From IMG/VR virus record IMGVR_UViG_3300006790_000075, positions 1 through 30,302 of that record: 30,302 bases of DNA, one strand, 5' to 3'. The position numbers were made by a program, and so were the translations under genes. Source of the stretch: a virus. The notes under the pieces were generated by a model, which made no database searches, was not told the origin of the DNA, and worked only from the letters and a program-made list of their open reading frames with translations. Shown here piece after piece: positions 3,107-26,346 of the stretch. Position 1 is the first letter of the stretch. Every line of letters begins with the position of its first letter.

Positions 3107-4132
3107 ATGGTTGTTAGCGCAACTACCCACCCGACGCTGCTCGACTACACGAAGCGTCAAGACCCTGATAAGAGCATCGCGACCATCGTCGAGACGCTCG
3201 CCCAAACCAACGAAGTCCTTGAGGACATGGTCCACCTTGAGGGCAACCTTGAGACTGGCCACCGCACCACGATCCGCTCGGGCCTTCCGGCTCCGACGTG
3301 GCGCAAGCTCTACGGCGGCGTTCAGCCGACCAAGAGTGAAACGGTCCAGGTAACGGACACCATCGGTATGATGGAAGCCTACGCCGAAGTGGACAAGCAA
3401 CTCGCTGACCTCAACGGCAACACGGCTGCGTTCCGCATGTCGGAAGACATGGCCCACCTTGAGGGCATGAATCAGGAGTTCGCCAGCACGCTGTTCTACG
3501 GCGACGAAACCACGGCGTCCGAGGAGTTCACCGGCTTCCTGCCGCGCTTCAACTCGTCGTCTGCCGAAAGCTACGAGAACGTCCTGTTGGGCACTGCCTA
3601 CGGCGGTGCGACTGCGGCGGACGACAACAACACTAGCATTTGGCTCGTTGTCTGGGGTCCGAACACCTGTCACGGCATCTACTCCAAGGGCAGCCAGATG
3701 GGTCTGTCCAAGGAAGACAAGGGTCAGGTGACCATCGAAGACACCACCGGCAACGGTGGCGGTCGTATGGAAGCCTACCGGACCCACTACAAGTGGTGCA
3801 CGGGCCTGAGCGTTCGCGACTGGCGTTACATCGTGCGTATGCAGATTGACGCTGACAACCTTGGCGCAGAGTCGACCGCCTCGAACGGCATCGCGGACCT
3901 TACCGAGATGATGTCAGACGCTTGCGAACTGATCCCGAGCCTGAGCGCGGGTCGCGCTTCGTTCTACTGCAACCGCAAGGTCAAGCAGACGCTGCGTAAG
4001 CAGTTCGTCAACAAGGTCAAGCAGTCCACGCTTGGCATGGACGAGATCGGCGGGCGTAGCACGCTGACCTTCGACGGCATCCCGATCCGCAAGGTGGATG
4101 CCCTCACCCTCACTGAAACCCGAATCAGCTAA
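3107..4132 (+). CDS. Major capsid protein (Bbp17-like, HK97 fold expected)
   Basis: This 341-residue protein matches the Bbp17-type major capsid family: an N-terminal helical region (LLDYTKRQDPDKSIATIVET), the block PTWRKLYGGVQPTKSETVQV, then AYAEVDKQLADLNG and a domain containing GMNQEFASTLFYGDE. The C-terminal part contains ASFYCNRKVKQTLRKQ and a final GIPIRKVDALTLTE strand, as is usual in this family. About 340 residues is normal. A GAGGAG ribosome-binding site lies shortly upstream of the ATG, as expected for a highly expressed gene. Codon use is strongly biased to C- and G-ending codons compared with several tail-protein insertions. It forms the icosahedral shell on the scaffold encoded immediately upstream. 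Confidence 0.85.
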   Translation: MVVSATTHPTLLDYTKRQDPDKSIATIVETLAQTNEVLEDMVHLEGNLETGHRTTIRSGLPAPTWRKLYGGVQPTKSETVQVTDTIGMMEAYAEVDKQLADLNGNTAAFRMSEDMAHLEGMNQEFASTLFYGDETTASEEFTGFLPRFNSSSAESYENVLLGTAYGGATAADDNNTSIWLVVWGPNTCHGIYSKGSQMGLSKEDKGQVTIEDTTGNGGGRMEAYRTHYKWCTGLSVRDWRYIVRMQIDADNLGAESTASNGIADLTEMMSDACELIPSLSAGRASFYCNRKVKQTLRKQFVNKVKQSTLGMDEIGGRSTLTFDGIPIRKVDALTLTETRIS

Positions 4133-4147
4133 CAGGAGGACACACAC

Positions 4148-4618
4148 ATGTTTATCGACTCAAGCCTTGAGTTTGCGGACAACACCAGCGTGCCCCTGAC
4201 TGGCACTGCGACTGACGACCTGATGATTGGCGAGATTGACCTGCGACCCGTAGGCGTCTCGGACAACACCACTGTAGATTTCTCCGCCGGGGAACCACTC
4301 TACTTGGTCATTGAGGTCAACACGGCCATTAGTGGCGCTGGCTCTTCTTACGCTTTCTCGCTGTATACCGACGACGTTTCGACGACGGCGGGCGCGGAGT
4401 CTGCTGGCCAACAGATTTTTGACACTGGCCTAAAGGGCGTTAACAGAAATGCTGGCAAGCGCCACGTCTTTTCTCTGCCCGAAGCTGACTACCAGCGTTA
4501 CTTGACGCTGCACGGTCGCTCCGACAACGGAACCGCTCCTACTGCTGGCGCGATTACGGCCTTCATCACGAAGGACGTGACCAACTGGACCTCGACCGAC
4601 ACCCGCGTCAACGTCTGA
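4148..4618 (+). CDS. Bbp16-like capsid accessory (cement/decoration) protein
   Basis: This 156-residue, beta-rich protein begins MFIDSSLEFADNTSVPLTGT, a start typical of the Bbp16 family that follows the major capsid gene in BPP-1-like phages. The remainder alternates strands with PLYLVIEVNTAI, a ribosomal-protein-like spacing of small residues and a C-terminal TAFITKDVTNW block. A strong AGGAGG site lies 7-8 bases before the ATG. The stop overlaps the next start in a TGATG. A role stabilising or decorating the shell is known for relatives and inferred here. Confidence 0.7.
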   Translation: MFIDSSLEFADNTSVPLTGTATDDLMIGEIDLRPVGVSDNTTVDFSAGEPLYLVIEVNTAISGAGSSYAFSLYTDDVSTTAGAESAGQQIFDTGLKGVNRNAGKRHVFSLPEADYQRYLTLHGRSDNGTAPTAGAITAFITKDVTNWTSTDTRVNV

Positions 4619-4824
4619 TGAAGGTTCAGGCAACCGCTAAGGGGGTCTACGCTTCTCGTCGCTGGAAGCCCGGCGACGAGTTCGAGGTAGTAGCCCACAA
4701 CTTTAACCCTGCGTGGATGCGTAAGGTTGAAGAAGAGAAGGCTCCCGCCAAGCGAGGACCGGGACGCCCGAAGAAGCAGCCGAAGGAAACCAAGCCTTCG
4801 GTTGAGGATCAGGCGGAAGCCTGA
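4618..4824 (+). CDS. Small protein with AT-hook-like basic tail
   Basis: This is a 68-residue protein. Residues 1-38 look like a small beta-barrel (KVQATAKGVYASRRWKPGDEFEV), a common form for short phage head-tail proteins. Residues about 42-62 are lysine- and proline-rich and include KRGPGRPKKQPK, the GRP core of an AT-hook, which can bind the minor groove of AT-rich DNA. The acidic end is EDQAEA. It is TGATG-coupled to the Bbp16-like gene. The predicted pseudoknot begins five bases after its stop. A role at the capsid-DNA or head-tail interface is inferred. Confidence 0.6.
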   Translation: MKVQATAKGVYASRRWKPGDEFEVVAHNFNPAWMRKVEEEKAPAKRGPGRPKKQPKETKPSVEDQAEA

Positions 4825-4894: not shown

Positions 4895-7800
4895 GTGGCC
4901 GTCAGAAAGTTCATCCTCGTTACCGGACAGAGTAACGCGACTGAGGAACCTCCTGCTCAAAGTTGGGAGGACGAGAACCCCTACCTTAGTCTCAGAAGCC
5001 CGCAGCACGTCGCTACTAAGACTCCGCAGTTTGCGAACGGAGCTTACAACGACCTGATTACCCTGCCCTACACGTTCAACGGCGGGCAGCAGACGGGCAT
5101 CTTGGGAGACGGGGCACGCTCGGACAGTTGGCAATACGTCAACGTTTTGGGCACGGCATCGCAGGCCCTGCGTTACCTGACGTTCTACGACCCGAGCGCC
5201 AGTTACTTCAACAGCCTCGCGGTCACGAACACCTACCCCGGCACCGGGCGCATCCTAGAGGGCAGCACGTCGTCGTCGATCAAGACCAGCGTGTCTTGGC
5301 AGGAAGACCCATCCGGCATCAAGATCACGCGACAGCGCACGGGTCAGACCCACACGATTAACAGCACTGACACGGGTGCCACGGTCACGCTGGACACGCC
5401 CATGCTTCCGGCTCCAGAAGTCGGTGAGTTGTTCACCTACGAGGTGGAGACGTGTGTGCCAACGGACGGCCAACACAGCGCGTCGCAACTGGCGTTTAAG
5501 AACACGTTTGGTGGCATCAGCTTCTTCCCTAGCCAGGAAACTAACCTTGGTAAATACACCAGCTACATCTCGGACATCCGTGACTCTAGCGGCAACGCCT
5601 TGCCGATGCGGGTCAACTGTCGTTCGCGGCTGTTCCAGGTTGGTGACGCTGTTACGTTTGAGAATGGCGCAGTCGGCACGGTCACTTACGTCGGCGGTGT
5701 TGTCGCAGGTGCGGCAGGCCAGAAGTATGTCACCCGTGTCGGCACCCCACTGGAAACCCGAGACGTAGCCAACGGCGACTGGGATTACACCAACAACCGC
5801 ATCAATCTCAGCGGGCACCAGTTGGGCGACCGTGAGCCGATCACGTTTACTCCAAAGGCAGACAACACTCTGCCAACTGAGATCGAGCAGGGTCGGACCT
5901 ACTACACGGCGACCTTTGACAGAAACATCGACATCCCCTACACGGCTTGGGGTGCAGGTCTTACGGCTCTTGATCCTAGTGCGCCCAACACTGCTTGGGA
6001 GACATTTGATTTCACTATAACCATTACAGGCCACGGCCTGATTGATGGCGACATCGTTAGGTTTGCCGCTGGCGGCGACTTCCCTACTGACGACGCGCTC
6101 GTCCTGCCTGCTGCTGACCCCGCCCTGACGCCACCTGTTGCTAGCACGCTCTACTACGTCAAGCGGATCGACGACGACACGTTTGAGCTTTACACCGACG
6201 CCAACCTAACAGGTCAAGACAAAACGGTTTCATGGGACACCGTTCCTACTGATGGCTCTGTCACGCTAGAGCGCATAACTGGCAACGTAACGCACAACAG
6301 CTTCCAGATCGTCAAGGACACGCTGACCTGGACGCCAGATAAATACCAAGCCGGAACAGGCGACCCTGTGGTCTACAACATTCAGATCACCAACCACGGG
6401 CTGCAAAACGGAGAGCAAGTCTACTTTGCATCTGGCTCAAACCTGCCTGCGGCAGACACTAGCAACGAAGACGTTGTGGCAGCACAGGTTGACACGACCT
6501 ATTACGTCTTCCGTGTAGATGCCGACAACTTCCGACTTTACACGCAGCCGGATTATGGGCTCGCGACCCTGGGGGGCGTGCAGGTTGGATGGGATCTTAC
6601 AACAACGCCCAGTGGGGGTAGCACCCTTCGACCCCGCACGTTCTTCGCGTGGGATGAGAAACTGGCGATCACTGCCCCTGCCTCTGGCACCACATCCTGC
6701 ACGATCACGCGGCTAGACAGTTACTCTGACTTCTACATCTCAGACACTCTGGGTGGTGAGGAACTCGATTCGGATGGTCAGAGTGGTCGAAGTCCCCTTG
6801 TTAGCCTGGAAGGCCGCCAGTTTGCCAACGAGTTGCTGACGGTTCCGACCGCCATCTTCCGAGGAAGCCTGACAGGTCTGCAAGCCCGCTGCATTAGCGG
6901 CGAGTCTCAGAACGAGGGGGAAGCCCGCGCTCTCAACGACATTGAGTTGGCTGGCACCCCTCCGATCACCTACGTCAACTGTGACGCTTTCCCTGTAACG
7001 CCTGCGGCTGGCGACACGTTCGTCATCGAGCCTCAGAACCAAGTAGCCGAGTTCCACAAGTGGGCGATGTGGCTGCCGTGGTGCCCTTTCGAGGGCAAGG
7101 CTCAGTATGACGGCCCTGGTCTGGTTGCTTGGCTCATCAACTCGGGAGGCAAAAACCTCTTCTTCAGCGTAGCAGGCTTGAAGGCTCCGGTAGAGGTCGG
7201 GATGAAGGTCCGGCTGTATACGGACGGTGCTCTCCCGGCATCTCTGGTGGCGGGCAGGGACTACTTCGTTGCAGAGGTTACGTCGCTGCCAGGGTTGTTC
7301 GGGGTTTACGGAATCGAGCTTAAGGCTAACTACGACGACACGGCGAAGATTGCCTACAGCGAAGACGACTTCATCGACCCCGCTTACTTCGGGGTGACCA
7401 CGATGTTCGTGGTAGACCAAGCGGGTAAGGGCAACCCTTTCCCTCCTGGGTTCAACTACCCGAACCACTACGCGACGCCGCGTCCCTACCAGCCGTTCGA
7501 TGGACCGATGTTCATGGCGAAGCAGCCGAGCGCCGCGTTCCACACCAGCCTGGGCTACAAGTTCTACGAGCACTACGGCGAGGTGTTCAACATCGCGCTG
7601 TCGGCTATCGGTCAGTCGTCCGTAGGCCACAAGGAGGTCCGTGACGTTAGCACGATCCTGACGGGTCACTCCTGGTATGACCGGATGCAGTTCAAGTCCT
7701 GGTCGCCGGGCGAGCCCAACAACTGCTTCTCGCGTGTCCTCGACACGCTGGACGCCGCCAAGACAGCGTTCGAGGCAGAGGGTGACACCGGAGAGTGCGT

Positions 7801-8791
7801 CGGCATCTTCTACGCCCAGGGCGAAACGGACGCCTTCCTGCCCCGCCTCGCGGACAACTACGAGAACGCGATGCGGAAGCTCAAGGCAGCCATGCGTCAA
7901 GCGGTCAAGGAGCGCGGGCTGACCTCGCTAGACGAGGACAAGATTCCGTTCATCCACCCGCAGATCAAGAACTACGACATCTACCCTGGCACCGAGGTCG
8001 TGAACGCTGCGATCACGGCGCTTGCGGACGAAGACCCTTACAGCCGCACGGTCAGCGTGGACGGCGTAGACCTGCTACCTAACGACGTTCACTACACGGG
8101 CAAGGGCATGAGCCTGCTTGGCGACCGTTGCTACGAAGCCTGGAAGGACATCCAGCGTTCGGGCTCGTCGGAGGTAGACATCTGCAACCTCGCCCTCACC
8201 AACATCGGTGACAAGGCCACCGTTACCAGCATCAACCCGAGCGATGGAAGCCACCAAGCAGATCTTTGTGCTCGCTACTATCCCTTGGCCCGAGATCTGC
8301 TTCTGGAGCGCCATCGCTGGGACTTCACCATACGACACGTCAGCCCCGTGGCTCTCACTGCTAGCGGACGCACTGACTGGGCCTACGCCTTCAAGCTCCC
8401 GAGCAACTTTACGGGGGTCATCTCGGTCTTGCCGAAGGACTCGACAGACGACCAGATCACGCAGGGCACCGCGTCTCCGCAGCCCTTCGCGATTGAGTCG
8501 AACGCCAGCCTAGACCGCGTGCTCTACACGAACGAGCCCGAGGTAATCCTGCGTTACCAAGCCAAGGTCACCGACAGCACGAAGTTCAGCCAGATGTTCG
8601 TCCACGCTGTCTCCTGGCAACTGGCAAGCATGTTGGCGGGTGCGCTCATCAAGGGTGACGACGGCGCTGCTGCTGTGCAGAACGCTACGAGGATGGCGGA
8701 GTTCTACACCGAGAAGGCGGCGGCCTACGACAGCCGCAGCACCCGTGAGAAGCCGGTCGTGGACGGCAACATCAACCCCTGGGATCGCTAG
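4895..8791 (+). CDS. SGNH/sialate-esterase-like protein with long fibre insertion, fused to gp11-like head-tail adaptor
   Basis: This 1298-residue protein starts at GTG 4895, with GAGG seven bases upstream and an in-frame stop at 4883. Block I of the SGNH/SASA esterase family is at the very N-terminus (LVTGQSN, Ser13). Blocks II, III and V come about 870 residues later: GYKFYEHYG and AIGQSS (887-909), YAQGETD (973-979), and PNDVHYTGKG (His1066). Between them lie fibre-like beta modules near 307, 379, 500 and 768 (HGL..GD..F, then YYV..., then F.LYT), and a CISGESQNEGEARAL segment of the type seen in phage fibres. Residues 1093-1298 (VDICNLALTNIGDKATV, then LLLERHRWDF) match the gp11/tail-tubular-A adaptor family, which links portal to nozzle. 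Host-polysaccharide deacetylation is inferred. The Asp position of the DxxH motif reads Asn1063, with Asp next to it, so activity is uncertain. Confidence 0.75.
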   Translation: MAVRKFILVTGQSNATEEPPAQSWEDENPYLSLRSPQHVATKTPQFANGAYNDLITLPYTFNGGQQTGILGDGARSDSWQYVNVLGTASQALRYLTFYDPSASYFNSLAVTNTYPGTGRILEGSTSSSIKTSVSWQEDPSGIKITRQRTGQTHTINSTDTGATVTLDTPMLPAPEVGELFTYEVETCVPTDGQHSASQLAFKNTFGGISFFPSQETNLGKYTSYISDIRDSSGNALPMRVNCRSRLFQVGDAVTFENGAVGTVTYVGGVVAGAAGQKYVTRVGTPLETRDVANGDWDYTNNRINLSGHQLGDREPITFTPKADNTLPTEIEQGRTYYTATFDRNIDIPYTAWGAGLTALDPSAPNTAWETFDFTITITGHGLIDGDIVRFAAGGDFPTDDALVLPAADPALTPPVASTLYYVKRIDDDTFELYTDANLTGQDKTVSWDTVPTDGSVTLERITGNVTHNSFQIVKDTLTWTPDKYQAGTGDPVVYNIQITNHGLQNGEQVYFASGSNLPAADTSNEDVVAAQVDTTYYVFRVDADNFRLYTQPDYGLATLGGVQVGWDLTTTPSGGSTLRPRTFFAWDEKLAITAPASGTTSCTITRLDSYSDFYISDTLGGEELDSDGQSGRSPLVSLEGRQFANELLTVPTAIFRGSLTGLQARCISGESQNEGEARALNDIELAGTPPITYVNCDAFPVTPAAGDTFVIEPQNQVAEFHKWAMWLPWCPFEGKAQYDGPGLVAWLINSGGKNLFFSVAGLKAPVEVGMKVRLYTDGALPASLVAGRDYFVAEVTSLPGLFGVYGIELKANYDDTAKIAYSEDDFIDPAYFGVTTMFVVDQAGKGNPFPPGFNYPNHYATPRPYQPFDGPMFMAKQPSAAFHTSLGYKFYEHYGEVFNIALSAIGQSSVGHKEVRDVSTILTGHSWYDRMQFKSWSPGEPNNCFSRVLDTLDAAKTAFEAEGDTGECVGIFYAQGETDAFLPRLADNYENAMRKLKAAMRQAVKERGLTSLDEDKIPFIHPQIKNYDIYPGTEVVNAAITALADEDPYSRTVSVDGVDLLPNDVHYTGKGMSLLGDRCYEAWKDIQRSGSSEVDICNLALTNIGDKATVTSINPSDGSHQADLCARYYPLARDLLLERHRWDFTIRHVSPVALTASGRTDWAYAFKLPSNFTGVISVLPKDSTDDQITQGTASPQPFAIESNASLDRVLYTNEPEVILRYQAKVTDSTKFSQMFVHAVSWQLASMLAGALIKGDDGAAAVQNATRMAEFYTEKAAAYDSRSTREKPVVDGNINPWDR

Positions 8792-8793
8792 AG

Positions 8794-11700
8794 ATGCCGA
8801 AGACGCGCAAGGTTCAGCTTTCGTTCTCGGGTGGTGAGATCGACACCCAGATGTATGGGCGCATCGACGCCCAGCAGTATCAGTCGGGTCTTGCCACCTG
8901 CAAGAACTGGATGGTTGACCCTCGCGGTAGCCTGCGTCGGCGTCCTGGTATGCAGCGTGTAGCGGGCAGCCTGGACAGCACCAAGAAGTCTAGGCTGATC
9001 CCGTTTACCTACTCGGTGGATCAGCAGTTAGCCGTTGAGTTCACGGACCAGAAGGTCCGGCTGCACAGTTACGGCGGGACAATCGTGTGGGCAGACTTCC
9101 GAGAGTTCGACTCGGACGGCATCGACACAACCGAGAACGTCATCACGTTCAAGGATGACCACGGCTTTGAAGACCAGGAGCCCATCGTCTTCTACGCGGA
9201 GGACCACGACTTTGGGGCGCTACCCAACCCGCTGACCGACCCAGACGGCAACTACTTCGTCAGGTCTGTAGACGCCCGGTCTATCAAGATCTTCGACGCC
9301 GCGACTAACGGCAACGTAGTCCCACTGACTAGCACCGGAACCTCCGACAAGAAGTTCTACGCCTTCAAGAAAGGCAGCAGAGAAGGGTATGTTGGCAACG
9401 CTCGGGCCTACAAGCGTTACGACAACAGCACGGGGGCATCTGCAACAGCCCTTCTCCGTCTACCTACGACAGTCAATTCTAATTTCCTCCTCAACTTTAC
9501 GGGAGGCACGCTAGGTCCTGGCTCCACAGGCATCGGCAACGGCGTAGATCACGGCGATCTAAGGTTCTTCCAGGGCGAGGCTGTCGAACTTGTAGACCAA
9601 GTTGGCAACCCTTTGCCCGGCATCCCACGACCGTTGTTCGTGGACTACTTCGCCGCCGCCGTCAACACCAGCTTCAACTTCGGGCTCAGGACTGCGGAAG
9701 AGTATGTGAACACTCAAGCAGGCGGCAGGCCAAACACTTGGATCAACGCGACGACGCTTGAAAGCATCATCAACAACGCTGCTCTCACCGTCTCGCGCAT
9801 TCACATTCGGCAATACTGGCGCAAGGGCGACTACGGATACATCGGCATTCCTGGCGTCAACACAACCCTGCTCCACAAGGTTGTCAGATTCTCTAGCGCA
9901 ACATCTAGCGCCAACGCCAGTGGCTTTGTTGGCCAGATCGAGGACAAGTCTACAGAGGCATCAGACGACGGCGCTGTCGTCATCGCCACCCCGTTTACCG
10001 AGTCGGAACTGTTCGACATCGAATACGACCAGTCCGGTGACGTAGTAACGCTGACGCACCCGAACCACCGGCCCCATGAGTTGCGGCGCTACGGCGTGAT
10101 CGAGTGGGACGTTTCCGAAGTCGATTTCTCACCGCCGCTGCCTGCCCCGACTGGACTGGCAGGCACGCCCCAGCGTGGTCAGGCTTACCAAGTACTTGAT
10201 ACGTCTTCGCCTACGGCTGGCGTTGTCGAGTTTACGTTCAATGACCCCGTCCCGTTTACATATGGAGACACGGTGTATGTTAGGGGCGGCAGCAGCACGG
10301 CTTCAGGGTATGGCTCAGTTGCTGACTTGACCACTAGTGGAACAGCAGTCACTGGCATCCAATTAAGGCTGCCAAACGGCAGCCCGTGGCCCGTTCCCAC
10401 TCCGGTTGGCGCTGTCAGCGACGTATACTTCTACTACAGCGTTTCGACGGCAGATCCCGACGAAACCTACAAGGTTACGGCTGTAGACGAACGCGGCCAG
10501 GAGTCGCTGGGCTCCGATGAGTTCACGGTCCAAGACAACATCTTGGGTTCGCCGGGAGCCAGCAACGGATTGACTTGGAACTCTGTTAACGGGGCTCTGA
10601 GTTACAACGTCTACAAGAAGTTCAACGGCACGTTCGGGCTGATCGGCAGAGTAGACACCGAGCCGGGTGCGACTACTTACTCGTTTGAGGACGACGACAT
10701 CGGAGTCGATCCTTCTCAGTCGCTACTGATCGAAGATCAGCAGGTCGAAGACAGTTTCCAGCCGCGAGCTTCCGCTCGGTTCGAGCAGCGCAGGTGCTTT
10801 GGTGGTTCTCCAGCCCTGCCTCGCACGCTCTTTATGAGCCGCACGGGCACGGAGTCATCGTTCTCCTACCGCTTCCCTGTCCAGCCTGACGACCGCATCG
10901 CGGTGCAGGTAGCCTCGCGTGAAGCCCACGTCATCCGTCACATCGTTCCGGTCCAAGACCTGATCCTGATGACGCAGCAGGGTGAGTTCCGCGTTACAGC
11001 GATCAACAGTGACGCGATTACGCCGAGCACCATCGCGATCCGGCAGCAGTCCTACGTCGGCAGCAACAGCGTTCACCCGCAGATCGTCAACAACTCGATT
11101 GTCTTCTGCTCTGAGCGTGGCGGTCACGCCCGAGAGTTGAACTACAAAGTCGAGAATCAGGGCTACCTGACAGGCGACCTGAGCCTGCGGGCAGCGCACC
11201 TGTTCGACGGCTTCACGCTCAACGACCTCGCCTACTCCAAGGCCCCGATCCCGGTTCTGTGGTTTGTGTCCAGCAGCGGCAAGCTCCTGTGCTTGACCTA
11301 CATCCCCGAGGAGCGAGTGCTTGCGTGGCACCAGCACGAAACAGACGGGGCAATCGAGAGCGTCTGTAGCGTCTCAGAGGGCAACTACGACAACCTCTAC
11401 GTCATCGTCAAGCGCGGCGATGATCGGAGCGTAGAACGCATCGTGCAAGTCCGTGAGGAGACTTTGGACGACGCGATCTACCTGGACTCCAGCGTCTGCA
11501 AGGACAACATCAACACGGGGACTAGCCAAGTGCTAATCACCAGTGATGGCCGGATGGCGAAGGGCGAGACGGTTACGGTCAACGCCGTGGCTGCGGATGG
11601 TCAGACCCCGGTCTTGGACGTGTTCAGCACCAGCGACATCGGGGACGAGGTGGAGGTGACGCATGGGACAGGCCGTTATCGCCTGCGCCTAGACTCGTTC

Positions 11701-13044
11701 ATCCCCACGGTCGAGCGGTCGGGTCGTATTCACTACACGGGTGATTCTCTAGGCGCGACCTCGAACACGCCTCACTGGGATGCCGGGAATGTCGCCACGT
11801 TCTACGACAGTGACGAGCACCCTATCGTCAACGACGAACTGGTCAGGATGTCTTCGACAGGCACTCTGCCTACGGGGCTATCGTCTGCGACCAACTACTA
11901 CGCTTTAGAAGTCACGCAGGACGCCAGCTTTACAATCAACTCTGGATTCCGTGGCATCCTATTGTCTTCGGCATCACACACCTTGAAAGACGGCGAAGGC
12001 GTCAAGATTAGCACGACAGGCACAATGCCTAGCGAGCTTGACCCAGACCAAGAGTATTTTGTCGGAATCTTCGGCAGCGCGGGCTTTTACCGACTGTATC
12101 TCGACCGCATTAATGCTCTGAATGGAAGCAACATCAACGTAGTCCAGTTTACAGGCGGCAGTGGCACGGTCACGGTTCGCAGGACTCGGAGTCTGCGCCT
12201 GCAAACCGTAGCATCTAGCGGGACACCAGTCAGTTGGACTGGCGCGGGCACTGGCGAGCACTCAGTCGTGCGCTCAGTCTACCGCGAAAGCAGCGACCAG
12301 CCTCACGGGTTGGCTACCGGCGACCTTGTCCGCACAGGATCAGATGTCCCTGGAGGCTTAGACGCTAACACGGTCTACTACGTCATCAGGGACTCAGCCG
12401 AAGAGTTCCGGTTTGCTACGTCTGCGTCAAACGCGGAAGCCGGAACGGCTGTGACGCTAACATCTCCGCCGTCTAGTGGGTTGCTGACAGTCACAGTTGG
12501 AGCCGAACTGAGCGAGGCTCAGTGCAAGGGCACGCTGCTTGAAGACTGGCCTCGCACCCTCAAGGGCACGCCGACGCCTAACTGGGCGTTTGCCCGCAAG
12601 GTCTTCTCAGGCTTCATCCACCTTGCAGGTCAGACCATCACGGTCTTGACCCGAGGCGGCAAGACGGAATCTGTAACGGTTGCGGCGGATGGCACCGTGA
12701 CCCTGAGTGACCGGGTCGTCAAGATCTGCGGTGGTCTGCCCTACACGTCACAGGCCAAGACCCTGCCCATGAGCCTGGAGATCGAGGCTGGAGCGCAGGG
12801 CAGGACCAAGAGCGTCAACCAAGTCTTCGTGCGTGTCGAGGACACAGGCGCGTTGCAGGTGGGCATGGACGAGGCGGACCTCAAGTCTGTCACGGAGTTG
12901 AGTAACACGGCGCTGAAGACGGGCGAGTTCCGCACCAGCGTCCCGTCTACCTGGGACGAGGAGGGTCAGATCGTGGTGGAAGCCACGGGTGCTGCGCCTG
13001 CGTCCCTGTTAAACATCACGACCCAGGTGTCGCTCGGAGACTAG
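8794..13044 (+). CDS. Giant tail nozzle protein (tail tubular protein B / gp12-like)
   Basis: This 1416-residue protein begins with the family signature LSFSGGEIDTQMYGRIDAQQ, followed by GLATCKNWMVDPRGSLRRRPG, typical of gp12/P22 gp10-like nozzle proteins. A fibronectin-like unit (YKVTAVDERGQESLGS, then LSYNVYKKFNGTFGLIGRVD) at about 560-630 precedes the conserved propeller region (ASARFEQRRCFGGSPALPRT, QGEFRVTAINSDAITP, NSIVFCSERGGHARELNY). T7 gp12 is about 790 residues. The excess here is insertions of HGL..GD-type modules near residues 122, 1007, 1060 and 1170, resembling those in the upstream adaptor fusion. It starts two bases after the previous stop. It forms the tube through which DNA leaves and likely contacts the adaptor and fibres. 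Confidence 0.8.
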   Translation: MPKTRKVQLSFSGGEIDTQMYGRIDAQQYQSGLATCKNWMVDPRGSLRRRPGMQRVAGSLDSTKKSRLIPFTYSVDQQLAVEFTDQKVRLHSYGGTIVWADFREFDSDGIDTTENVITFKDDHGFEDQEPIVFYAEDHDFGALPNPLTDPDGNYFVRSVDARSIKIFDAATNGNVVPLTSTGTSDKKFYAFKKGSREGYVGNARAYKRYDNSTGASATALLRLPTTVNSNFLLNFTGGTLGPGSTGIGNGVDHGDLRFFQGEAVELVDQVGNPLPGIPRPLFVDYFAAAVNTSFNFGLRTAEEYVNTQAGGRPNTWINATTLESIINNAALTVSRIHIRQYWRKGDYGYIGIPGVNTTLLHKVVRFSSATSSANASGFVGQIEDKSTEASDDGAVVIATPFTESELFDIEYDQSGDVVTLTHPNHRPHELRRYGVIEWDVSEVDFSPPLPAPTGLAGTPQRGQAYQVLDTSSPTAGVVEFTFNDPVPFTYGDTVYVRGGSSTASGYGSVADLTTSGTAVTGIQLRLPNGSPWPVPTPVGAVSDVYFYYSVSTADPDETYKVTAVDERGQESLGSDEFTVQDNILGSPGASNGLTWNSVNGALSYNVYKKFNGTFGLIGRVDTEPGATTYSFEDDDIGVDPSQSLLIEDQQVEDSFQPRASARFEQRRCFGGSPALPRTLFMSRTGTESSFSYRFPVQPDDRIAVQVASREAHVIRHIVPVQDLILMTQQGEFRVTAINSDAITPSTIAIRQQSYVGSNSVHPQIVNNSIVFCSERGGHARELNYKVENQGYLTGDLSLRAAHLFDGFTLNDLAYSKAPIPVLWFVSSSGKLLCLTYIPEERVLAWHQHETDGAIESVCSVSEGNYDNLYVIVKRGDDRSVERIVQVREETLDDAIYLDSSVCKDNINTGTSQVLITSDGRMAKGETVTVNAVAADGQTPVLDVFSTSDIGDEVEVTHGTGRYRLRLDSFIPTVERSGRIHYTGDSLGATSNTPHWDAGNVATFYDSDEHPIVNDELVRMSSTGTLPTGLSSATNYYALEVTQDASFTINSGFRGILLSSASHTLKDGEGVKISTTGTMPSELDPDQEYFVGIFGSAGFYRLYLDRINALNGSNINVVQFTGGSGTVTVRRTRSLRLQTVASSGTPVSWTGAGTGEHSVVRSVYRESSDQPHGLATGDLVRTGSDVPGGLDANTVYYVIRDSAEEFRFATSASNAEAGTAVTLTSPPSSGLLTVTVGAELSEAQCKGTLLEDWPRTLKGTPTPNWAFARKVFSGFIHLAGQTITVLTRGGKTESVTVAADGTVTLSDRVVKICGGLPYTSQAKTLPMSLEIEAGAQGRTKSVNQVFVRVEDTGALQVGMDEADLKSVTELSNTALKTGEFRTSVPSTWDEEGQIVVEATGAAPASLLNITTQVSLGD

Positions 13045-13738: not shown

Positions 13739-16230
13739 TGCCTAGAGTTCCCAGTGTCGGGCTGTCGCCCACGTCGCGACCGCAGTTCCAAGCGCCGGGG
13801 GTCGTGGCGTTCCAAGGCGGCCCCGAGTTGCAGCAGATCGCCAGGGGTGGTGCTCGCCTGGAGCGTATCGGTCGGATCGTTGGGCAGATCGGCATTGAGG
13901 TCGAGGACAAGGTCAACGATGCCCGTGCGATGGAAGCGACCAACACCTTTGAGAATGGTGTTGCTCAGGCATTCTTGGAGTATCAGCAACTAAAGGGCAA
14001 GGATGGCGTAGACGGCTACGAGAACTTCCAGAAGCAAGTCGAGGAACTGCAAGACGGCGCGGGTTCTCTGTTGATGAACGACATGCAGCGTGCGTCTGCC
14101 ATGCCGATCTTTGACAAGATCAACAGCCGGTTCAGCCTGCGTGCTCAAGAGCACTACATGGGTGCCGCTGCCGAATACAAGCAGCAGCAAGTCGTAGCCG
14201 AGCGCATCAAACTGGAAGACGCTCTGAGGTCGGAGCCACTGGGAGCCAACTCGGTTGCCCTGTTCATGCGCCTGCGTCAGAACTTGGCGAAGGAAGCCGA
14301 GGGCCTGGGCTACAGCGAAGACCGCCTAGACACTCACGTCCTTGAAGGGACGAGCAAGTTGGTCAACGACTTGTTCAACCACTACGCGGACAGTGATCGT
14401 CCCGAGGATGCCTTGGCATTCCTCAAGGCTGTCGAGGTGTTCGAGCAGTCCCCGATGGCGTCAAAACAGGGGCCGACCTCACTGCGGGGCAAGACCTACG
14501 CGGAAGCTCAGGCTGCGGCTAAGGCAGACCAGACGCCCGTGGGCGCGGTGATGTTCGACAGCACACGCAGCGCGCTCCAGAAGAAGGCGCAAAAGCTGGG
14601 CATGGACACCTGGGCCATGAGAACCGTGGACAGCTACAAGTCCGCGAGCGAAGCATACGAAGATTCCCAGTCTAAGTTCGATTCCGGCGAATGGACGGCG
14701 TCACAGCGTGAGGCTGTTGAAAAGCGCACCGCGTCAGTGTTTGACCGCAAGCAGACCCTTAGCATTCGTAACGCCAACGAAACCGAGGAGAATGCAAAAA
14801 GTGAATACCTGAACAAGGGGGAGATCAGCCAAGACACTAGAGACGCCTTGGACAATGTTCATAAACTCGACGACTTTGTCGGCTGGGCTCGTCAGTTCAA
14901 CCGTGGCCAGACCACTGTCGATGGGGATCCAGATAAGTGGGCTGCCTTCCAGGTCCACTGGGACAACGACTCTGGAGTTAAAAAGAAGGCTGCCGGAATA
15001 CGCACCCGAAAAGACCTGGGTGCTGTTTTCTTCGAGGCCAAGGGTAACGGTGCCTCCCGTGACGAAGCCCTAGCTTGGACGAAGAGGGTTGCCAACGCCT
15101 CCAACTTGGGGGTCACCGTAGACGTAAACGAAGAGTTGCGCGACCAAGGCATCGGCACCGTCGAAGATCGTCAGCAATACGCAACCCGGTGGTTTAGCGG
15201 TCAGTGGGATCCGCTTATCGAAAAGGCCAAAGAGGAGGGGGACTCTAAGGGTAGTAAGGCCGTCTTGGCGTTGAAGTCTAGTAGACAGAGTCAGTTTGCA
15301 GAGGCGTATAACAAGAAGGTTCGGGAACTGGCTGCCCTAGATACTGGTCTTCAGGGAGAGAAGTTGCTGGAGCGTGCTCGCAGAGAAGCCTGGGAAGACG
15401 GCATCCGAACCTACGAGGTCGGCGGGGAGACTCGAAAGATCAACACTTGGACGGCGCTGCCTTCCGAGATCGAAGCCGCCACCATTGCAGCATCTCCTGT
15501 TGGCACACTTAGCACCCTAGAGGGTTATGCAACTACGAAACGTATCGTGGGGGAGCCAGAAGATGAGCGTCGCCAGCAGACGATTCTGGAAGCTGCGGAG
15601 CAAAGGTTCGTAAGCGAAAACATGCCAGCGGCGATGCTAGCGGAGTATGCACAAGGCCGGGCAGATCTAGCACGCAACACGTATGCGGCTCTTCGCATGA
15701 TGGGGGTGCAGCAGATGTTCTCGGGAGCCATGGCTACAGCGGCATCTGCCCAGGCTTTCCCGCCCATGCCGCAACGTGCGGCGCTGGACATTGACTCTCC
15801 AGCCGGTCAGTTCCGACTCTTGCAAATTGCTCAACAGATACAGTTAGAGGACACCGATTCTTTTACGGATGGGGAACGGCAACAGCAACTCAAGCGCGAG
15901 CTTTGGTCCGCCATCAATCAAGACATTGAGATCGACAACTGGTTGACCGAAGCCAGAGACAATTACTTTAAGGGCAGGGCGTTCCTGTCAGACCCAGGTG
16001 CAGTTAGCTTCTTAGAAGACCGATACAGGAATGAGGGTGGCCGTCCCCGAAACTATTGGAGGACTAGAGGCTTGACGGACGAGTCTTTCGAGGAAGTGCT
16101 AAGGCTGCACCCCACGTTCGCGACGGCTCGCTCAGGCAGCCCAACATTCACGTTGAATCGGAAGCAGTATTGGACGGCCCAACCCTTCCCTGAAGAAATG
16201 CAGCCGGAATCGTCGGAGGTCGGACGATGA
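13738..16230 (+). CDS. Internal virion protein, T7 gp15-like
   Basis: This 830-residue, largely helical, charged protein starts in a TAATG overlap. Its N-terminus (VGLSPTSRPQFQAPGVVAFQ, then QQIARGGARLERIGRIVGQI) fits the beginning of phage inner-core proteins. It sits between the gp14-like and gp16-like genes, and its length is near T7 gp15 (747 residues). At residues 240-258, MASKQGPTSLRGKTYAEAQ repeats the start of the preceding protein and begins with a methionine, as if a second reading unit had been joined here. No enzyme motif is visible. From about 14,740 to 16,200 the codon use looks less biased, with AGG and AGA appearing. The role in DNA ejection is inferred from order and family. 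Confidence 0.6.
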   Translation: MPRVPSVGLSPTSRPQFQAPGVVAFQGGPELQQIARGGARLERIGRIVGQIGIEVEDKVNDARAMEATNTFENGVAQAFLEYQQLKGKDGVDGYENFQKQVEELQDGAGSLLMNDMQRASAMPIFDKINSRFSLRAQEHYMGAAAEYKQQQVVAERIKLEDALRSEPLGANSVALFMRLRQNLAKEAEGLGYSEDRLDTHVLEGTSKLVNDLFNHYADSDRPEDALAFLKAVEVFEQSPMASKQGPTSLRGKTYAEAQAAAKADQTPVGAVMFDSTRSALQKKAQKLGMDTWAMRTVDSYKSASEAYEDSQSKFDSGEWTASQREAVEKRTASVFDRKQTLSIRNANETEENAKSEYLNKGEISQDTRDALDNVHKLDDFVGWARQFNRGQTTVDGDPDKWAAFQVHWDNDSGVKKKAAGIRTRKDLGAVFFEAKGNGASRDEALAWTKRVANASNLGVTVDVNEELRDQGIGTVEDRQQYATRWFSGQWDPLIEKAKEEGDSKGSKAVLALKSSRQSQFAEAYNKKVRELAALDTGLQGEKLLERARREAWEDGIRTYEVGGETRKINTWTALPSEIEAATIAASPVGTLSTLEGYATTKRIVGEPEDERRQQTILEAAEQRFVSENMPAAMLAEYAQGRADLARNTYAALRMMGVQQMFSGAMATAASAQAFPPMPQRAALDIDSPAGQFRLLQIAQQIQLEDTDSFTDGERQQQLKRELWSAINQDIEIDNWLTEARDNYFKGRAFLSDPGAVSFLEDRYRNEGGRPRNYWRTRGLTDESFEEVLRLHPTFATARSGSPTFTLNRKQYWTAQPFPEEMQPESSEVGR

Positions 16231-19200
16231 ACGACTTTGTTGGAACGCCGCCGCTGTTCGGTGAAGCGCCGAGCCTGCCGCAACAGATCCGCTTCAACCT
16301 GATGGAGCCGCCCGAGCAGGATCCCAAGAAGGCCAGGGAGAAGAAGGTTCTTGAGAAGGCTGGGGTAGACCCTGCTCTCGAACTGGAAAAAGCCAAGGCT
16401 CGGTTCCTGGCTGAGAAGTTCAGTGAAACTAACTGGGTGCAGCGTCACCCCACCTTGGCAGCCAAGCTGGCTGACCGTGACTTTGTGCAGGTAGCCCGAG
16501 ATGATCTGGGCAACCTGATCGAGACGGAGGGCTTCGTCAACGAGGTTGCTAACGCATGGCGTGTGTCTCGCGACACAGTGTTTGCGGGCAAGATCGGAAC
16601 CCGAGCCATGCTGGAGGGGCGCGACCTGTATCCCTACGAAAGGGAGAGGCTGAAGCGTGCCCAAGAGCTTGCCAGTGCCCACATGGCTAGCGACCCCGGC
16701 TTCTTTGCGGCATCAACCGAACTAGCGGGAACCTTGGTAGAGACAGCAGGCGTTTCGGCGGTTGCTGGCGCAGTAACCGGAGCAGTCTTCCCGCCTGCTG
16801 CGCCTTACGTAGCGGGCGCGGCTGCCTACGCGGCGAGCTTTCAGCTAGAAGGCGGCAACCTCTACGCTGAACTCTTGCGCGAGTTTCAGGGCTCTATCAC
16901 CCCGGCTGAAGCCAAAGACATCGCGATTGGCTACGGCTCCGTCATTGCCGGTGCAGACTTGATCGGCCTCAAGGTAGCGACGGCTCCGATCAAGGGACTG
17001 ATTAAGGAGATCGCCAAGAAGCGATCCAAGGGCCTGCTGACCCGAGAGGCTGCGTCTCGCATGACGCTGAAGATCGTGGGCCAAGGCTTAGGCGGAGCCT
17101 TGGGTGAGGCCACGACGGAGGGTGTCCAAGACGTTCTGCAAGAACGCGCCAAGCGCGTCGCCTCTGAGATCTACCGACCGGATAACCTCTACGAGCCGGA
17201 ATACGAAGAGGCTTTCTGGCGGGCTTTTAGCCACACCTTTAAGGGCATGGTTCTGATGGCGGGCGTTCCAACAGGAGCCCGAGTCATCAACAGAAACATC
17301 CAGGTGGCCAACGCCAACTACGACTACGAGAAGGCCAAGCAGGCTGCTGAGATTCGTGGGCGTAGCAAGTCTCCTGATGCACAGCGCGAAGTAGAGGCTG
17401 CTGCTGATGAGACGGACACGCTCAACTCCACCTACTACGTCCGAGCCCAAGACTTTAACAAGGCAGTCTCCGAGCTAGCGGAGAAGACGGACGTGACGGA
17501 GCAGCAGGTTCGCGACACGGTAGAGGCCAACAGCCCTGGCCTGATGGCGAAGATCGACGCGGCTGCGGAGCACGATGGCGAAGTCGCGCTGACCAAGTCT
17601 GAGTGGGGCGCTGCGTTCGACAACACCCAGTTCCGAGAGACTGCCCTGTTAAACACCGCGTTCGAGGAAGACGGTCTGACTCAGCGTGAAGCCAAGGAGG
17701 TAGATCTCATTCGCGACAAGATCGTGAAGGAGGACAGCGACGCCGCTACCAAGAAACTTCAAGACCTGGAACAGTTCGAGCGCGAACTCCGTGAGGTCCG
17801 CAAAGACATCAACAGTCAACTGCGCGAGGCCCTGAAGGGCACGGACGCCGAACTAACTCTGAACGCAGCAGCGAACACCTCGATGCTGCTCGGCTTCATC
17901 CGTCGCGCTGCGCTTCAGATGAACATCTCGCCCAAGGAGTTCGTAGAGAAGCACCTGCCGCAGATCGTGCAGAAGCGTCTGGATGCCAAGCAGGCCCAGC
18001 AGCAAGATCGACCCACAACCCTTCATGCTTTGGGTGGCATTACTGCTCAACCCGATCTTGCCCAAGCCTCTGCAAACGCTACCCCAGCACAAGTCGCTGT
18101 ATTTGAGTCGTTCTTGCCTGCCAAAAACGAGCAGGGGTTGTTCACTGTTGCGGGTGAAAGTGTTGACCCTAACAACGGTCGCTTCGTCAAGATGACGGAG
18201 GCTTCCCAGGCTTTTGCAGATGGACGGATTACTCGGGAGCAAAGGGATGCTCTTGTTGAGATATACATGCCTGTGGCGCTAGACGATCAAGTCTATTCTC
18301 CAGCCACTCCTGAGAAGATGTCTCAGGCCCTTAACAAGAAGCAGGCTCCTTTGGTTAACGCTCCTGTTCAGGAAGGCCAAAGAGTTGGGTTGAGACTAGA
18401 TATTCCAGCCGTCAAGAAGGGCGCTCGCGTGGTTGCTATCCACGAAAGCGGGGGTGCCGGTGGAGGAACTCACATCCGGTATGCTAGCGCGGCCCGTGTG
18501 ACTAACGCGGAAATGTCTTCCAAGGAGAAGCGAGCGCAGCAGACAGCGGCAGGTAAGAAGAAGGATAAGTTAGCCGTCATTTACGGCGACTACACCTCGA
18601 TAAGCCCAGAGGAAGCCGTCCGTATTGCGACGCAGGCTCTAACAGATCCTGCGTGGCGTCAGGTCGGATTCGATCCCGTCCGACACTCCTACTACTACGA
18701 CCGCAAGACGGGTGAGCCGCTAGTCAGCGCCGACGAGGTGGTGCAGGTCGGCAGTCAGGTGTTCGCGAAGAACGCCAAGGTCGGCAAGCGGACTGACTTT
18801 TTGTATAGCACGGACGTTGTTCCAAACGGCGCGTCCGACTGGAGCGCAATTGGTGGAGCAGCCGATGCCGCCGCAGGATCTCGCAAAGACAAACTGTCTT
18901 TTGCTAAAGACAACGGCATACGGGTGTTGGAAGACGTTGATGGCAACGTCTACTTCGAGATGCCTAACGGCACAGTAGCCGACAATCTAGTAGATGATCG
19001 AACAGACTTGTCATGGCCTGACTCCACGTTGCTGGAGTTCATGCAGGAAACCAAGTCTACGTTTGTAGACACGCCTGCACACCAATTGACTGAGGACGAG
19101 TATGTCCAGCACCTTGTCAACTTGGTGGATAACGGCATGTATGTCAGGGAGTTCTTCGAGAGCAACCCTGACTTTGTTGGTCCAAGTGGTGTCCCCTCAG

Positions 19201-22200
19201 ACAAGCTGATTGACGAGAGAATCGCTCAATACGAGTCTGACCCAAACGCCTTTAAAGAGCAGGCGAGGGCAGAGCACGCCGAGGCTGTTCAGTTTGCGGC
19301 TTCTCTAGGGGACACCCTCTACAGCAAGGAAGGCGAGCAGCGCCGCAAACTCGGCGCAGCCGAAGTCGAAGGCGGGAAGGCCATCACGAAGATCCTGCTC
19401 GACCCCGACGCCAAGCCCACAACTCTGATGCATGAGTTGACGCACTGGAACTTAGAGTTGATGGCGGACATCGGCCTGGACATCGAAGCCAAGATGGCGC
19501 AGGAGGGCTACGAGGCGACGGCTTTGGAGAAGCAAATGCTGGACGACATCCAGCGCCTCCTCAAGTGGTCAGGATTCGAGGGCACACTGACTGAGTGGCG
19601 TGGTATGACCATCGACCAGCGCCGTGAGTATCACGAAGTAGTCGCGATGAGCTTCGAGCGATACCTCTACGAAGGCGTTGCTCCTAGCCGAGAACTACGA
19701 GGTGTCTTCAGTCGCCTGCTTGCCTACATCTCGGGCAGGTTCAAGGCGATGGTCGAGGACTTCCAAGTTACCTACAACGAGATCAGGAAGCAGCAGGGCA
19801 AGCCCGAGCAGCCCTTGCCTGGACTCAACGACGAGGTCCGCGCCATCTTTGGTCGCATGATGTCCGCCGAGCGGGACGTGCAGGCGTTCTTCGAGGAGGG
19901 CGAACTGGACGCGATGATGATGACCAAGAAGGAGTGGACTGACTCCGGTCGAGACGCGGACGAATACGACGAATACGAACGAGAGTTCAAGGATGCACTC
20001 AGCGAGGCCACGTCCGAACTCACGATGCAGCGCATGAAGGAGGTCAAGACCTTCGCCAATGCCTACGCGCTGGTGGCTCAGAAGCAGCGTGGTGAACTAC
20101 AGCGAATTACCAAGGAGATCCGTCAAGAGGTTCAAGCCCAGGTCGAGGTGGAGTCGGTCTACCAGTTCGTGTCTTGGATGCGGAAGGGCACCTACAAGAT
20201 CGAGAGCGGAACGGTTGAGCCCCTGCAACAGCCCTCTTCCGAGGAGTCTAAGACCTCAAGGAAGTTGAACGCTGCCATCGTCAAGGCAGTAGCCCCTGAC
20301 CTTTACAGCCAACTGGCGCGCAGGGGCCTGACCTCTAAGAACGGTGTGACGCTAGAGAAGGTGCGTAACATGTTCGGGTTCGAGAGCAACCGAGCCATGC
20401 TCGAAGCTCTGGCCAACCACAGGAACATGAAGGAGGAGGTGCTGCACCGTACAAACCAGCGCCTGCTGAACGAGCACACGGACCTGATGGATCCGATTGT
20501 GCAGCAGGAGAACATCCACCGTGCGGTCCACAACAAGATTCGGCAGAAGGTCGTGGCTCGCGAACTGAAGTTCCTGCTGCAAAACGGTCGTCGCAGCAAG
20601 CAAGAGGTGGAGCTTGCCAAGAGGATTGCCGAGGCGATGATCGAGAAGACGCCCATCGGCAACATCGACATCGTGGCCTACAAGCGTGCCGCCGCCCGCG
20701 CTCGCAAGAAGGCGCTGAAGGCGCTGAAGGATGGCGACATGGAAGCTGCCGCCTTTGCCAAGCGGCAAGAGTTGGTCAACGAGCAGATGATCGCGGAGGG
20801 TCTGAAGGCTCGCAAGGAAGTTCGCAGTCTGATCGAGTCGAACAAGCGTGCTTTCAAGCACCGGACTGACAAGACCCTGGCTAAGGCGGGCTACGACGTA
20901 ACGGTGATGAAAGCCTTGCGTGCTGTGCTGTCCCGCCTGGGTATCGGCAAGGTGGACTACGATGCCAACGAGGCACTGGCTCGGTTCGTCAAGGAAGACC
21001 CCGAGTTTGCAGCAGAGGTGGGCGGCAACATCGCTTCCTTGTTGAGCAAGGACATCGCGCAACCCCGCGTTGGTGACCGTCGCAAGCCGATGGAGCACCT
21101 GACTCTCGCGGACATCCGTGTCCTCCGCCTGCTATCCGCTCGCATGATGCTTCGAGCGAAGAACAAGCTGACGGCCAAGATCGGTGAGAAGCGCCAGCGT
21201 GTTGAGGCTGCTCAGAGCGAGGCCGTCAACACCCTGGAGAGCAACGTCAAGGACGGCTCGAAGGATCTCGACGGGAAGAAGAGCATCTTCGGCAAGATCC
21301 GAAACTACTTCTCAGACCTCATCCGGTTCGAGCACCTGTTCCGCCGTGCAGATGGAGGCAAGGTAGGCATCTGGACCCAGATGTTCCGCATGGTCAAGGA
21401 TGCGGGAAACCGCTACCGCCAGGAGTTCAAGGAGTTCGCGGAAGACTTTGGCAATCGTCTCCGCGCCTTGGATCTGGAAATCCCTGGTGGCGCTCGCGAA
21501 CTGGAGTTGACCGTCTACGGGAACAGGGTCGTCATCGGGGAGAACGGTCGCAACGTCAAGTCTCAGTTGATCCACTTGGCGATGCACTACTACGGCAACG
21601 CCAGCAACCGCCAGCGCCTGCTTCGAGGATACATCGGGGAGGAGATCGATCCCGAGTTACTTGAGGATGCGATGGAGCAGGCGGACCTGGAGGTCAAGAC
21701 ATTCCTGCAAGAGCAGATCCGTCAGGGGCTGCTGACCCTCAAGGACTTCGAGTTCATGCAGGAGACGTTCGATCAGTTGAGCGGGGCCGACATGCTGGGT
21801 CGGGCGCAGCAAGTGATGATGCGTCTTCGCCACTACGAGATGGACACGATTGAGGGCCAAGAGTTCTCGGTCGAGTTCCCTGACGGCACGACTCAGAAGT
21901 TCAAGGGCGGTTACATCCCTGTCCGTTACGACACGTCTACGGCTTCTGTTCGCGAGGGTGACGCCCAGGGCCTGCAAGACGAAGACATGAGCATCGACCA
22001 GCAGGCCAAGAGAATGCTGGGGATCCTGCCTAGCTTCGCCAAGGACCGGACTGGACCGGCGGCTCTACCCTTGGAGCTAAACCTTGCGAACATTCAGCAT
22101 CACGCTGCCGAGGTCTACAAGTTCATCCACATGGCTGAACCTGTTACTGAGGTTTACAAGGTGGTGAGTGGCAGGAAGGTGCGTCAGGCTTTCATCCGCA

Positions 22201-25581: not shown

Positions 25582-26346
25582 CTAGTCGTCTTGGTCCCCG
25601 TCCCAGCAGAGGCAGGACGTTTCGATGACCTCGGGGAACAGCTTACCCTGGGCTTCGTCAGCCTTGAGGAACGCTTCCCAACTGAACGAGCGGCCTAGCC
25701 CGGCGACAGTGTCGAGTTCGGCGTTGCGCTCCATGTCGATGGCGCGCTGTGCAAGCTCGGGGTAGCGTCGCTTCAGGTCGAGGATCTCGTTCTTCTTCGA
25801 GCCGGGGCAGAAGAAGCAGGCGGACTTGCCAGGGTTAGGCAGCCCGGCGCGTTCGAGCGCGAGCAGGCACTCCTCCCGTTCCCACATCCAGTCGATGAGT
25901 GGGTATTCGTAGCGATACTTCTCGTCTTCGGGGATCTGTGCTCGCCGTCGTTCTCCGATGTCGATGCCCAGATACTTCGTGACCTTCTCGCCTGCTGCCC
26001 AGACATCCTTGGCAGGCTGGTAGTTGTTGGCCCAGACCTCTTGCGGCTGCTTCTTATACTTGTGGCTGCACGACTTGAAGCCGTAGGCCAGGGACGGGAG
26101 CATCTTCTTGTAGAGGCAGTTGTGCTCCAGGTTCCGGTAGGTCTTCTGAGACGCACGGACTCGGGTGATCTCGGGGAAGCCATGCTTCTTGAGCCACCTG
26201 TCCATGATGTCCACGAACTGGTAGGTGTGCGGCTTCTCGCCGCCCGTGTCTGCGAACAGGATGGCGTCGCACTTCATGCCACGCTCCTGCATCCCGACGA
26301 GGAGGGCCGCGCTGTTCACGCCGCCGCCGAAGGAGACGATGATCAT
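25582..26346 (-). CDS. PAPS reductase-like PP-loop enzyme
   Basis: This 254-residue protein of the phosphoadenosine-phosphosulfate reductase / adenine nucleotide alpha-hydrolase family has an N-terminal PP-loop (MIIVSFGGGVNSAALL, about 3-16) and the FADTGGEKPHTY block. YGFKSCSHKYK follows, with a C-terminal cysteine set (CFFCPG at 177-181 and CLCW at 245-248, plus Cys77 and Cys93) that may bind metal or an iron-sulfur cluster. Phage members probably act on nucleotides or nucleic acid rather than in sulfur assimilation. It overlaps the helicase-loader stop in an ATGA, so it belongs to the replication operon. No DndA/B/D/E partners are visible, and its substrate is unknown. Confidence 0.75.
   Translation of the reverse strand: MIIVSFGGGVNSAALLVGMQERGMKCDAILFADTGGEKPHTYQFVDIMDRWLKKHGFPEITRVRASQKTYRNLEHNCLYKKMLPSLAYGFKSCSHKYKKQPQEVWANNYQPAKDVWAAGEKVTKYLGIDIGERRRAQIPEDEKYRYEYPLIDWMWEREECLLALERAGLPNPGKSACFFCPGSKKNEILDLKRRYPELAQRAIDMERNAELDTVAGLGRSFSWEAFLKADEAQGKLFPEVIETSCLCWDGDQDD

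Follow-up and report, generated by a model that had tools for sequence, protein, structure and literature searches.

The fused gene and its domains

The window analysed here is a 30.3 kb stretch (30,302 nucleotides, IMG/VR record IMGVR_UViG_3300006790_000075), a fragment from an uncultured virus, and our subject is a single gene at 4895..8791 on its + strand, in which a split SGNH/SASA module is fused to a portal adaptor of gp11 type. The gene is an open-reading frame (ORF) of 1298 amino acids with a GTG start codon, and its identity follows from the translation, matches to PF03629 and phrog_394, and its relatives. The first SGNH part (residues 1–30, 4895..4984, +; alignment A3) carries block I, the motif GQSN with the predicted nucleophile Ser13 (residues 11–14, nt 4925–4936, +), which is invariant in A3 save for a change of Ser to Asn in one marine clade only. 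There follows a long insert composed of a conserved N-terminal part (residues 31–190, 4985..5464, +; conserved in alignments A1 and A3), a length-variable, beta-rich part (residues 191–654, 5465..6856, +) corresponding to the gappy region of A3, and a second conserved beta domain, running from RGSLTGL to PFEGKA (residues 655–735, 6857..7099, +), which is conserved in all module types. The second SGNH part (residues 846–1088, 7430..8158, +), defined by the PF03629 match and by conservation, contains the block II region (nt 7604–7621, +), block III as QGETD (nt 7817–7831, +) and block V as NDVH (nt 8081–8092, +), and the protein ends in a portal adaptor domain of the T7-gp11/epsilon15-gp11 type (residues 1091–1298, 8165..8788, +), recognised by phrog_394.

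The original prediction, made from the sequence alone, had placed block I with its Ser13 at the start of the protein and a T7 gp11-like adaptor in the last ~206 residues, and both placements held. The Pfam SASA profile (PF03629) matched residues 934–1082 (1.5e-10, 41.5 bits; cut-off 24.8), but only with its positions 96–223 of 226, that is, the second part of the SGNH domain; since the match starts at profile position 96, the block I portion is absent there and is found at the N-terminus instead. phrog_394 matched residues 1092–1288 (8.8e-37, profile positions 3–179 of 190), the PDB connector 8ck1_E matched at 1.7e-13, and the stand-alone adaptors of BPP-1 and relatives aligned to residues 1089–1293 at ~40% identity, the adaptor domain itself being 44% identical to BPP-1 bbp14. 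A match to phrog_4201 (‘tail fiber’) was confined to the block II–III region. An identity as a tailspike or tail fibre, in which an N-terminal tail-binding domain precedes a C-terminal receptor or enzyme domain, was considered and rejected, since here the domains run the other way round and an adaptor domain serves as the anchor.

The distance from GQSN to QGE is 814–1097 residues in the long forms of this protein and ~385–510 in compact homologues, whilst that from QGE to the adaptor is nearly constant (120–122 residues in the long forms compared), so the joint between SGNH domain and adaptor is fixed and the insert varies. This insert had been described as a series of fibre-like beta modules: it is indeed beta-rich, modular and strongly variable in length, but its fibre nature found no support. 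In the variable part, small barrel-like repeats gave a match to PF12195 below the cut-off (residues 494–533, E = 0.0043), and a regular-expression count returned two such repeats in the window protein and one in the nozzle protein encoded downstream; these are weak indications that the insert may contain barrel-like repeats.

To see the fold of the module we turn to L140, a compact homologue (771 amino acids, modelled from a 54-row alignment) to which the window protein is homologous in both the SGNH and adaptor parts. The model (predicted local distance difference test, pLDDT, 77.9; predicted template-modelling score, pTM, 0.74) was compared with known structures by VIA-align, for which values are given, and also by Foldseek. 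Residues 3–539 superposed onto the complete SGNH esterase 1zmb_A (Z 22.5, root-mean-square deviation 2.2 Å, 221 residues), and the SGNH part scored Z 22.0 against 2apj_B and Z 17–20 against NanS and CE20 enzymes; residues 547–768 superposed onto connectors (8ck1_E Z 20.1, LME-1 Z 14.5, T7 gp11 Z about 12–13). One uninterrupted helix, residues 521–559, links the two and passes into helix 1 of the adaptor. The two SGNH parts had been predicted to close into one fold, with an adaptor at the C-terminus, and on this homologue’s model they do so; the adaptor call is backed in the window protein by the phrog_394 match and in the model by the connector superposition. A fold as in L140 is supported by this model for the two SGNH parts and gp11-type adaptor of the window protein.

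Relatives, gene order and other adaptor partners

The same SGNH–gp11 architecture was present on ~34 further IMG/VR contigs. The first homologue sets shared 38–61% identity with the window protein over its full length, more distant, compact homologues had 742–788 amino acids, and close stand-alone adaptors in IMG/VR had 219–248. In one relative (L021, 8980–12780) the fused gene is interrupted, the frame ending after ~165 amino acids and the adaptor match falling in two pieces. Neither of two bacterial-genome scans turned up a relative, and tblastn searches of 50,697 phage records with parts of the module, and of 72,556 plasmid records with one module, gave nothing significant. In a whole-protein search of annotated phage records, the matches listed were confined to the adaptor part, 16% of the query or less, and no annotated phage record in the searched collection carries the split-SGNH module. 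A search of BFVD with the L140 model returned two unnamed viral proteins aligning along the model length (template-modelling score 0.71 for the first), hence uncharacterised relatives are present in public databases. We left out of the module set a 1212-amino-acid protein with an unsplit, C-terminal SASA-like domain (L162, 2085–5720; also in L163), which is a different kind of large phage protein.

The left half of the window is a BPP-1/epsilon15-like morphogenesis module in the order protease, GP7 capsid, cement-position protein, 68-amino-acid ORF, fused gene, nozzle, internal virion protein and two large proteins. The protease gene (phrog_458) is part of the capsid module, and after it lie the GP7-family major capsid protein (3107..4132, +; PF20911, 3e-121), a gene in the cement/decoration-protein position (4148..4618, +; phrog_427, 2e-17) and the 68-amino-acid ORF in place of bbp15 (4618–4824), the last two placed by gene order as in BPP-1. 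The slot of the fused gene is occupied in BPP-1 by bbp14, a stand-alone adaptor of 223 amino acids. The tail nozzle protein (8794..13044, +; 1416 amino acids; phrog_376, 4e-155) is about twice the size of BPP-1 bbp13 (681 amino acids) and has two large insertions by blastp, at residues ~98–392 and 901–1271, such that adaptor and nozzle are both enlarged in the window. Within this 30.3-kb fragment the fused gene carries the sole adaptor and the sole SASA domain. The pattern recurs in relatives: phrog_394 genes occur once per record in 10 of 10 records tested (that of L021 split in two by its frame break), SASA domains occur once per record in all eight fused records, inside the phrog_394 gene, and at all 15 gp11-type loci examined a nozzle gene follows directly and the GP7 capsid gene lies upstream. 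Elsewhere in the window, a 2397-amino-acid ORF (16227–23420) matches phrog_9880 (5e-181), a family without assigned function, and a phosphoadenosine phosphosulfate reductase-like gene (25582–26346, −) lies beside DnaC-like and O-like replication genes.

Scans with alignments of the SGNH module alone recovered fusions to two more head-tail adaptor families, again with the split module at the N-terminus, a point that goes beyond the original prediction. Eight contigs carry gpW-type fusions (L067, L071, L073, L141, L142, L143, L145 and L146, with L067, L143 and L145 assigned by near-identical sequence), whose C-terminal 60 residues are gpW-like and match NF047331 (‘phage head-tail joining protein’, 2e-9, over the cut-off) and phrog_2545/118. 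Their gene lies downstream of a gpA-type terminase (TerL) and, where the portal was resolved, directly before a lambda-type portal, the same position that W occupies in lambda. Fourteen contigs carry Ad1-type fusions (L099, L118, L122, L128, L130, L134–L138, L144, L154, L155 and L157), with C-termini matching PF20557 (‘head-tail adaptor Ad1’, to 2e-28) and phrog_477 (to 8e-36), and at the loci examined the gene is flanked by the capsid gene on one side and by the head-closure/Neck1 genes on the other. All recovered split-module genes with a readable C-terminus end in a head-tail adaptor, except that of L139 (5001–7391), where a 155-residue C-terminus directly upstream of a Neck1 gene went unrecognised and is possibly a fourth adaptor partner; four contigs cut within the gene (L124, L127, L133 and L147) and the broken L161 lie outside this tally.

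On the maximum-likelihood tree of the module there are six changes of partner, against a minimum of three, and the starred branches force at least four changes for Ad1 and at least three for gpW; the Ad1-type L099 is nested within a gpW-type clade (support 99/98). Some positions on this tree are unsure, owing to the long branches of L125, L129 and L140. In the tree of gp11-type adaptor domains the fused adaptors group together with one long-branch exception, and a single fusion origin in that family was not rejected (approximately unbiased test, p-AU 0.4). The simplest reading of these trees is that modules were exchanged between phages with different adaptors. With the module on three adaptor families and six changes of partner, the portal-adaptor ring is a recurrent anchor of the split-SGNH module. 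The ratio of non-synonymous to synonymous substitution (dN/dS) was ≤0.35 across domains and pairs, and mostly <0.2, indicating purifying selection.

The active site and a proposed neck collar

Of 31 representative proteins, drawn from all three adaptor types, 27 retain the catalytic Ser and 30 the His, whilst QGExD is nearly invariant; L125 reads GQSI at block I. The window protein has both Ser13 and a block V His, His1066. Its block V reads NDVH, with the Asp at −2 as in the DxH motif of CE20 enzymes, the closest relative (L018) reads DGVH, other relatives DGVH or DGIH, and DxxH is found in many. A broken block V in the window protein was considered and dropped, since CE20 enzymes use a DxH motif, tolerate variation at the block V Asp and can work without the classical Asp (PMC12313940). 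Judged from these motifs, catalysis is plausible in most lineages, including that of the window.

We propose, with a probability of about 0.62, that the fused protein is the portal-adaptor ring protein of a BPP-1-like podovirus, and that its discontinuous SGNH (SASA/CE20-like) esterase module forms a neck collar used in adsorption or receptor clearing. A position of the module at the portal–nozzle ring is what we infer from the adaptor domain, the gene slot and the lack of another adaptor in the records. Beneath the portal, lambda gpW and T7 gp11 each build an adaptor ring of 12-fold symmetry (PMC10721106, PMC6702177); were the fused protein to assemble likewise, ~12 SGNH modules with their inserts would point outwards around the neck. 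Binding of surface or extracellular glycans would fall to the inserts, and removal of ester groups, probably O-acetyl, to the SGNH site. The most likely function is a collar that binds surface glycans and, wherever the catalytic Ser survives, de-esterifies them; a module that lacks the nucleophile would be a binding or structural part only. In a short-tailed phage such a module would lie near the nozzle and the cell surface, whilst gpW and Ad1 phages would carry it where the tail meets the head, a place better suited to a reversible contact with extracellular or capsular glycans early on than to final receptor binding.

Several observations weigh against this proposal. A whole marine clade (L027–L034) reads GQNQ or GQNN for GQSN and is without the nucleophile, L031 having in addition a Tyr in place of the block V His, and this loss across the clade means that catalysis is dispensable to the design. 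Block V is variable in its Asp, which gpW-type members lack at −3. The neck of the gpW and Ad1 phages may lie a long way from the tail tip, a poor fit to primary receptor contact. Finally, the fold was modelled on a homologue: the model of the closest relative (L018, 1149 amino acids, 8-row alignment) reached pLDDT 40 and was discarded.

The marine clade also speaks for a module that is structural or adhesive only, decorating the neck or collar with an SGNH fold that serves as a scaffold or lectin: despite the lost nucleophile, its SGNH parts remain under purifying selection (dN/dS 0.04–0.22 in the more diverged pairs), and lactococcal neck passage structures bear carbohydrate-binding modules (PMC6669499). 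Given the retention of Ser and His in most representatives and the near-invariance of QGExD, we regard this as a rather unlikely explanation. An esterase-like active site beside presumed binding inserts would also suit a receptor-destroying enzyme, in which ester stripping stops progeny from sticking to debris or used glycans and is no aid to attachment, for which the hemagglutinin-esterases offer an analogy; the loss of Ser in one clade and an activity that is only predicted speak against it, and we consider it improbable. Less probable still is a fusion of convenience, made as one chain and then cleaved to release an ordinary adaptor and a separate esterase. A protease gene (phrog_458) does lie upstream, though it belongs to the capsid module, but the uninterrupted helix (521–559 in L140) joins SGNH domain and adaptor, the 120–122 residues between QGE and adaptor in the long forms leave no open linker to be seen, and the fusion recurs with three adaptor families. 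An assembly artefact or mis-joined frame, conceivable for a metagenomic contig with one broken-frame relative (L021), is refuted by the intact fusion on dozens of contigs, 38–61% identical and alike in gene order.

The collar proposal can be extended to the adaptor ring in general, as a dock for exchangeable arms: one split-SGNH module would have moved among at least three adaptor families (gp11, gpW and Ad1) in unrelated phages, giving a class of neck-borne, 12-fold glycan-esterase collars not recognised before, an extension to which we give even odds. Adaptor rings are usually viewed as conserved structural joints, yet here the ring protein itself contains a carbohydrate-esterase module, and the presence of this module on three adaptor families suggests that the location itself is under selection. 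This points to a site of host-glycan processing on the virion other than the tail tip and gives a group of uncharacterised fused proteins a testable role; searches for adhesion or depolymerase genes that are restricted to tail-fibre genes will miss them.

Comparison with known adaptors, esterases and neck appendages

The C-terminal domain of the window protein resembles T7 gp11, epsilon15 gp11 and BPP-1 bbp14 (phrog_394; also KP32 TTPA) in single copy, gene slot and, on the homologue’s model, fold, the known slot likewise lying between the capsid/cement and nozzle genes. These known adaptors, however, have ~190–230 amino acids and no catalytic domain, whereas the window protein has ~1090 extra N-terminal residues; for KP32 TTPA a hydrolytic activity has been reported in a protein of 192 residues without an SGNH domain (PMC5440376). 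The other C-terminal partners of the module, adaptors of the lambda gpW and PF20557/Ad1 families, are also normally small, stand-alone proteins (68 residues in gpW).

With SASA/CE20 esterases (PF03629; NanS, SIAE, XacXaeA) the module shares the block I GQSN, QGExD, the block V His and, on the homologue’s model, a closed SGNH fold. In some CE20 enzymes, too, the SGNH domain is discontinuous, interrupted by an ancillary domain (PMC12313940), but here the insert is much longer, variable and placed right after block I, the C-terminus is an adaptor anchor, and the gene encodes a phage virion protein. Virion SGNH domains with a probable glycan target are likewise found in the tailspike of cyanopodophage Pan3 (9vyh) and in Klebsiella prophage fibres (PMC13123978); those are tailspike or tail-fibre proteins, whilst here the SGNH domain lies within an adaptor ring protein that is tethered through its C-terminus. 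Neck passage structures, collars and neck fibres (lactococcal 936/P335 phages, A-1(L), T4 fibritin) are also glycan-related or fibrous appendages of the neck, but they are separate proteins, not fused to the portal adaptor, and non-SGNH in the cases covered (PMC6669499, PMC10966104); the distal module of the A-1(L) neck fibre showed no host binding (PMC10966104). The searchable open-licence literature yielded no SGNH domain fused to a portal adaptor. Phage-fibre SGNH enzymes, discontinuous SGNH domains and appendages of the neck are each already known singly, and what is new is that they come together in the adaptor ring, and do so on three adaptor families.

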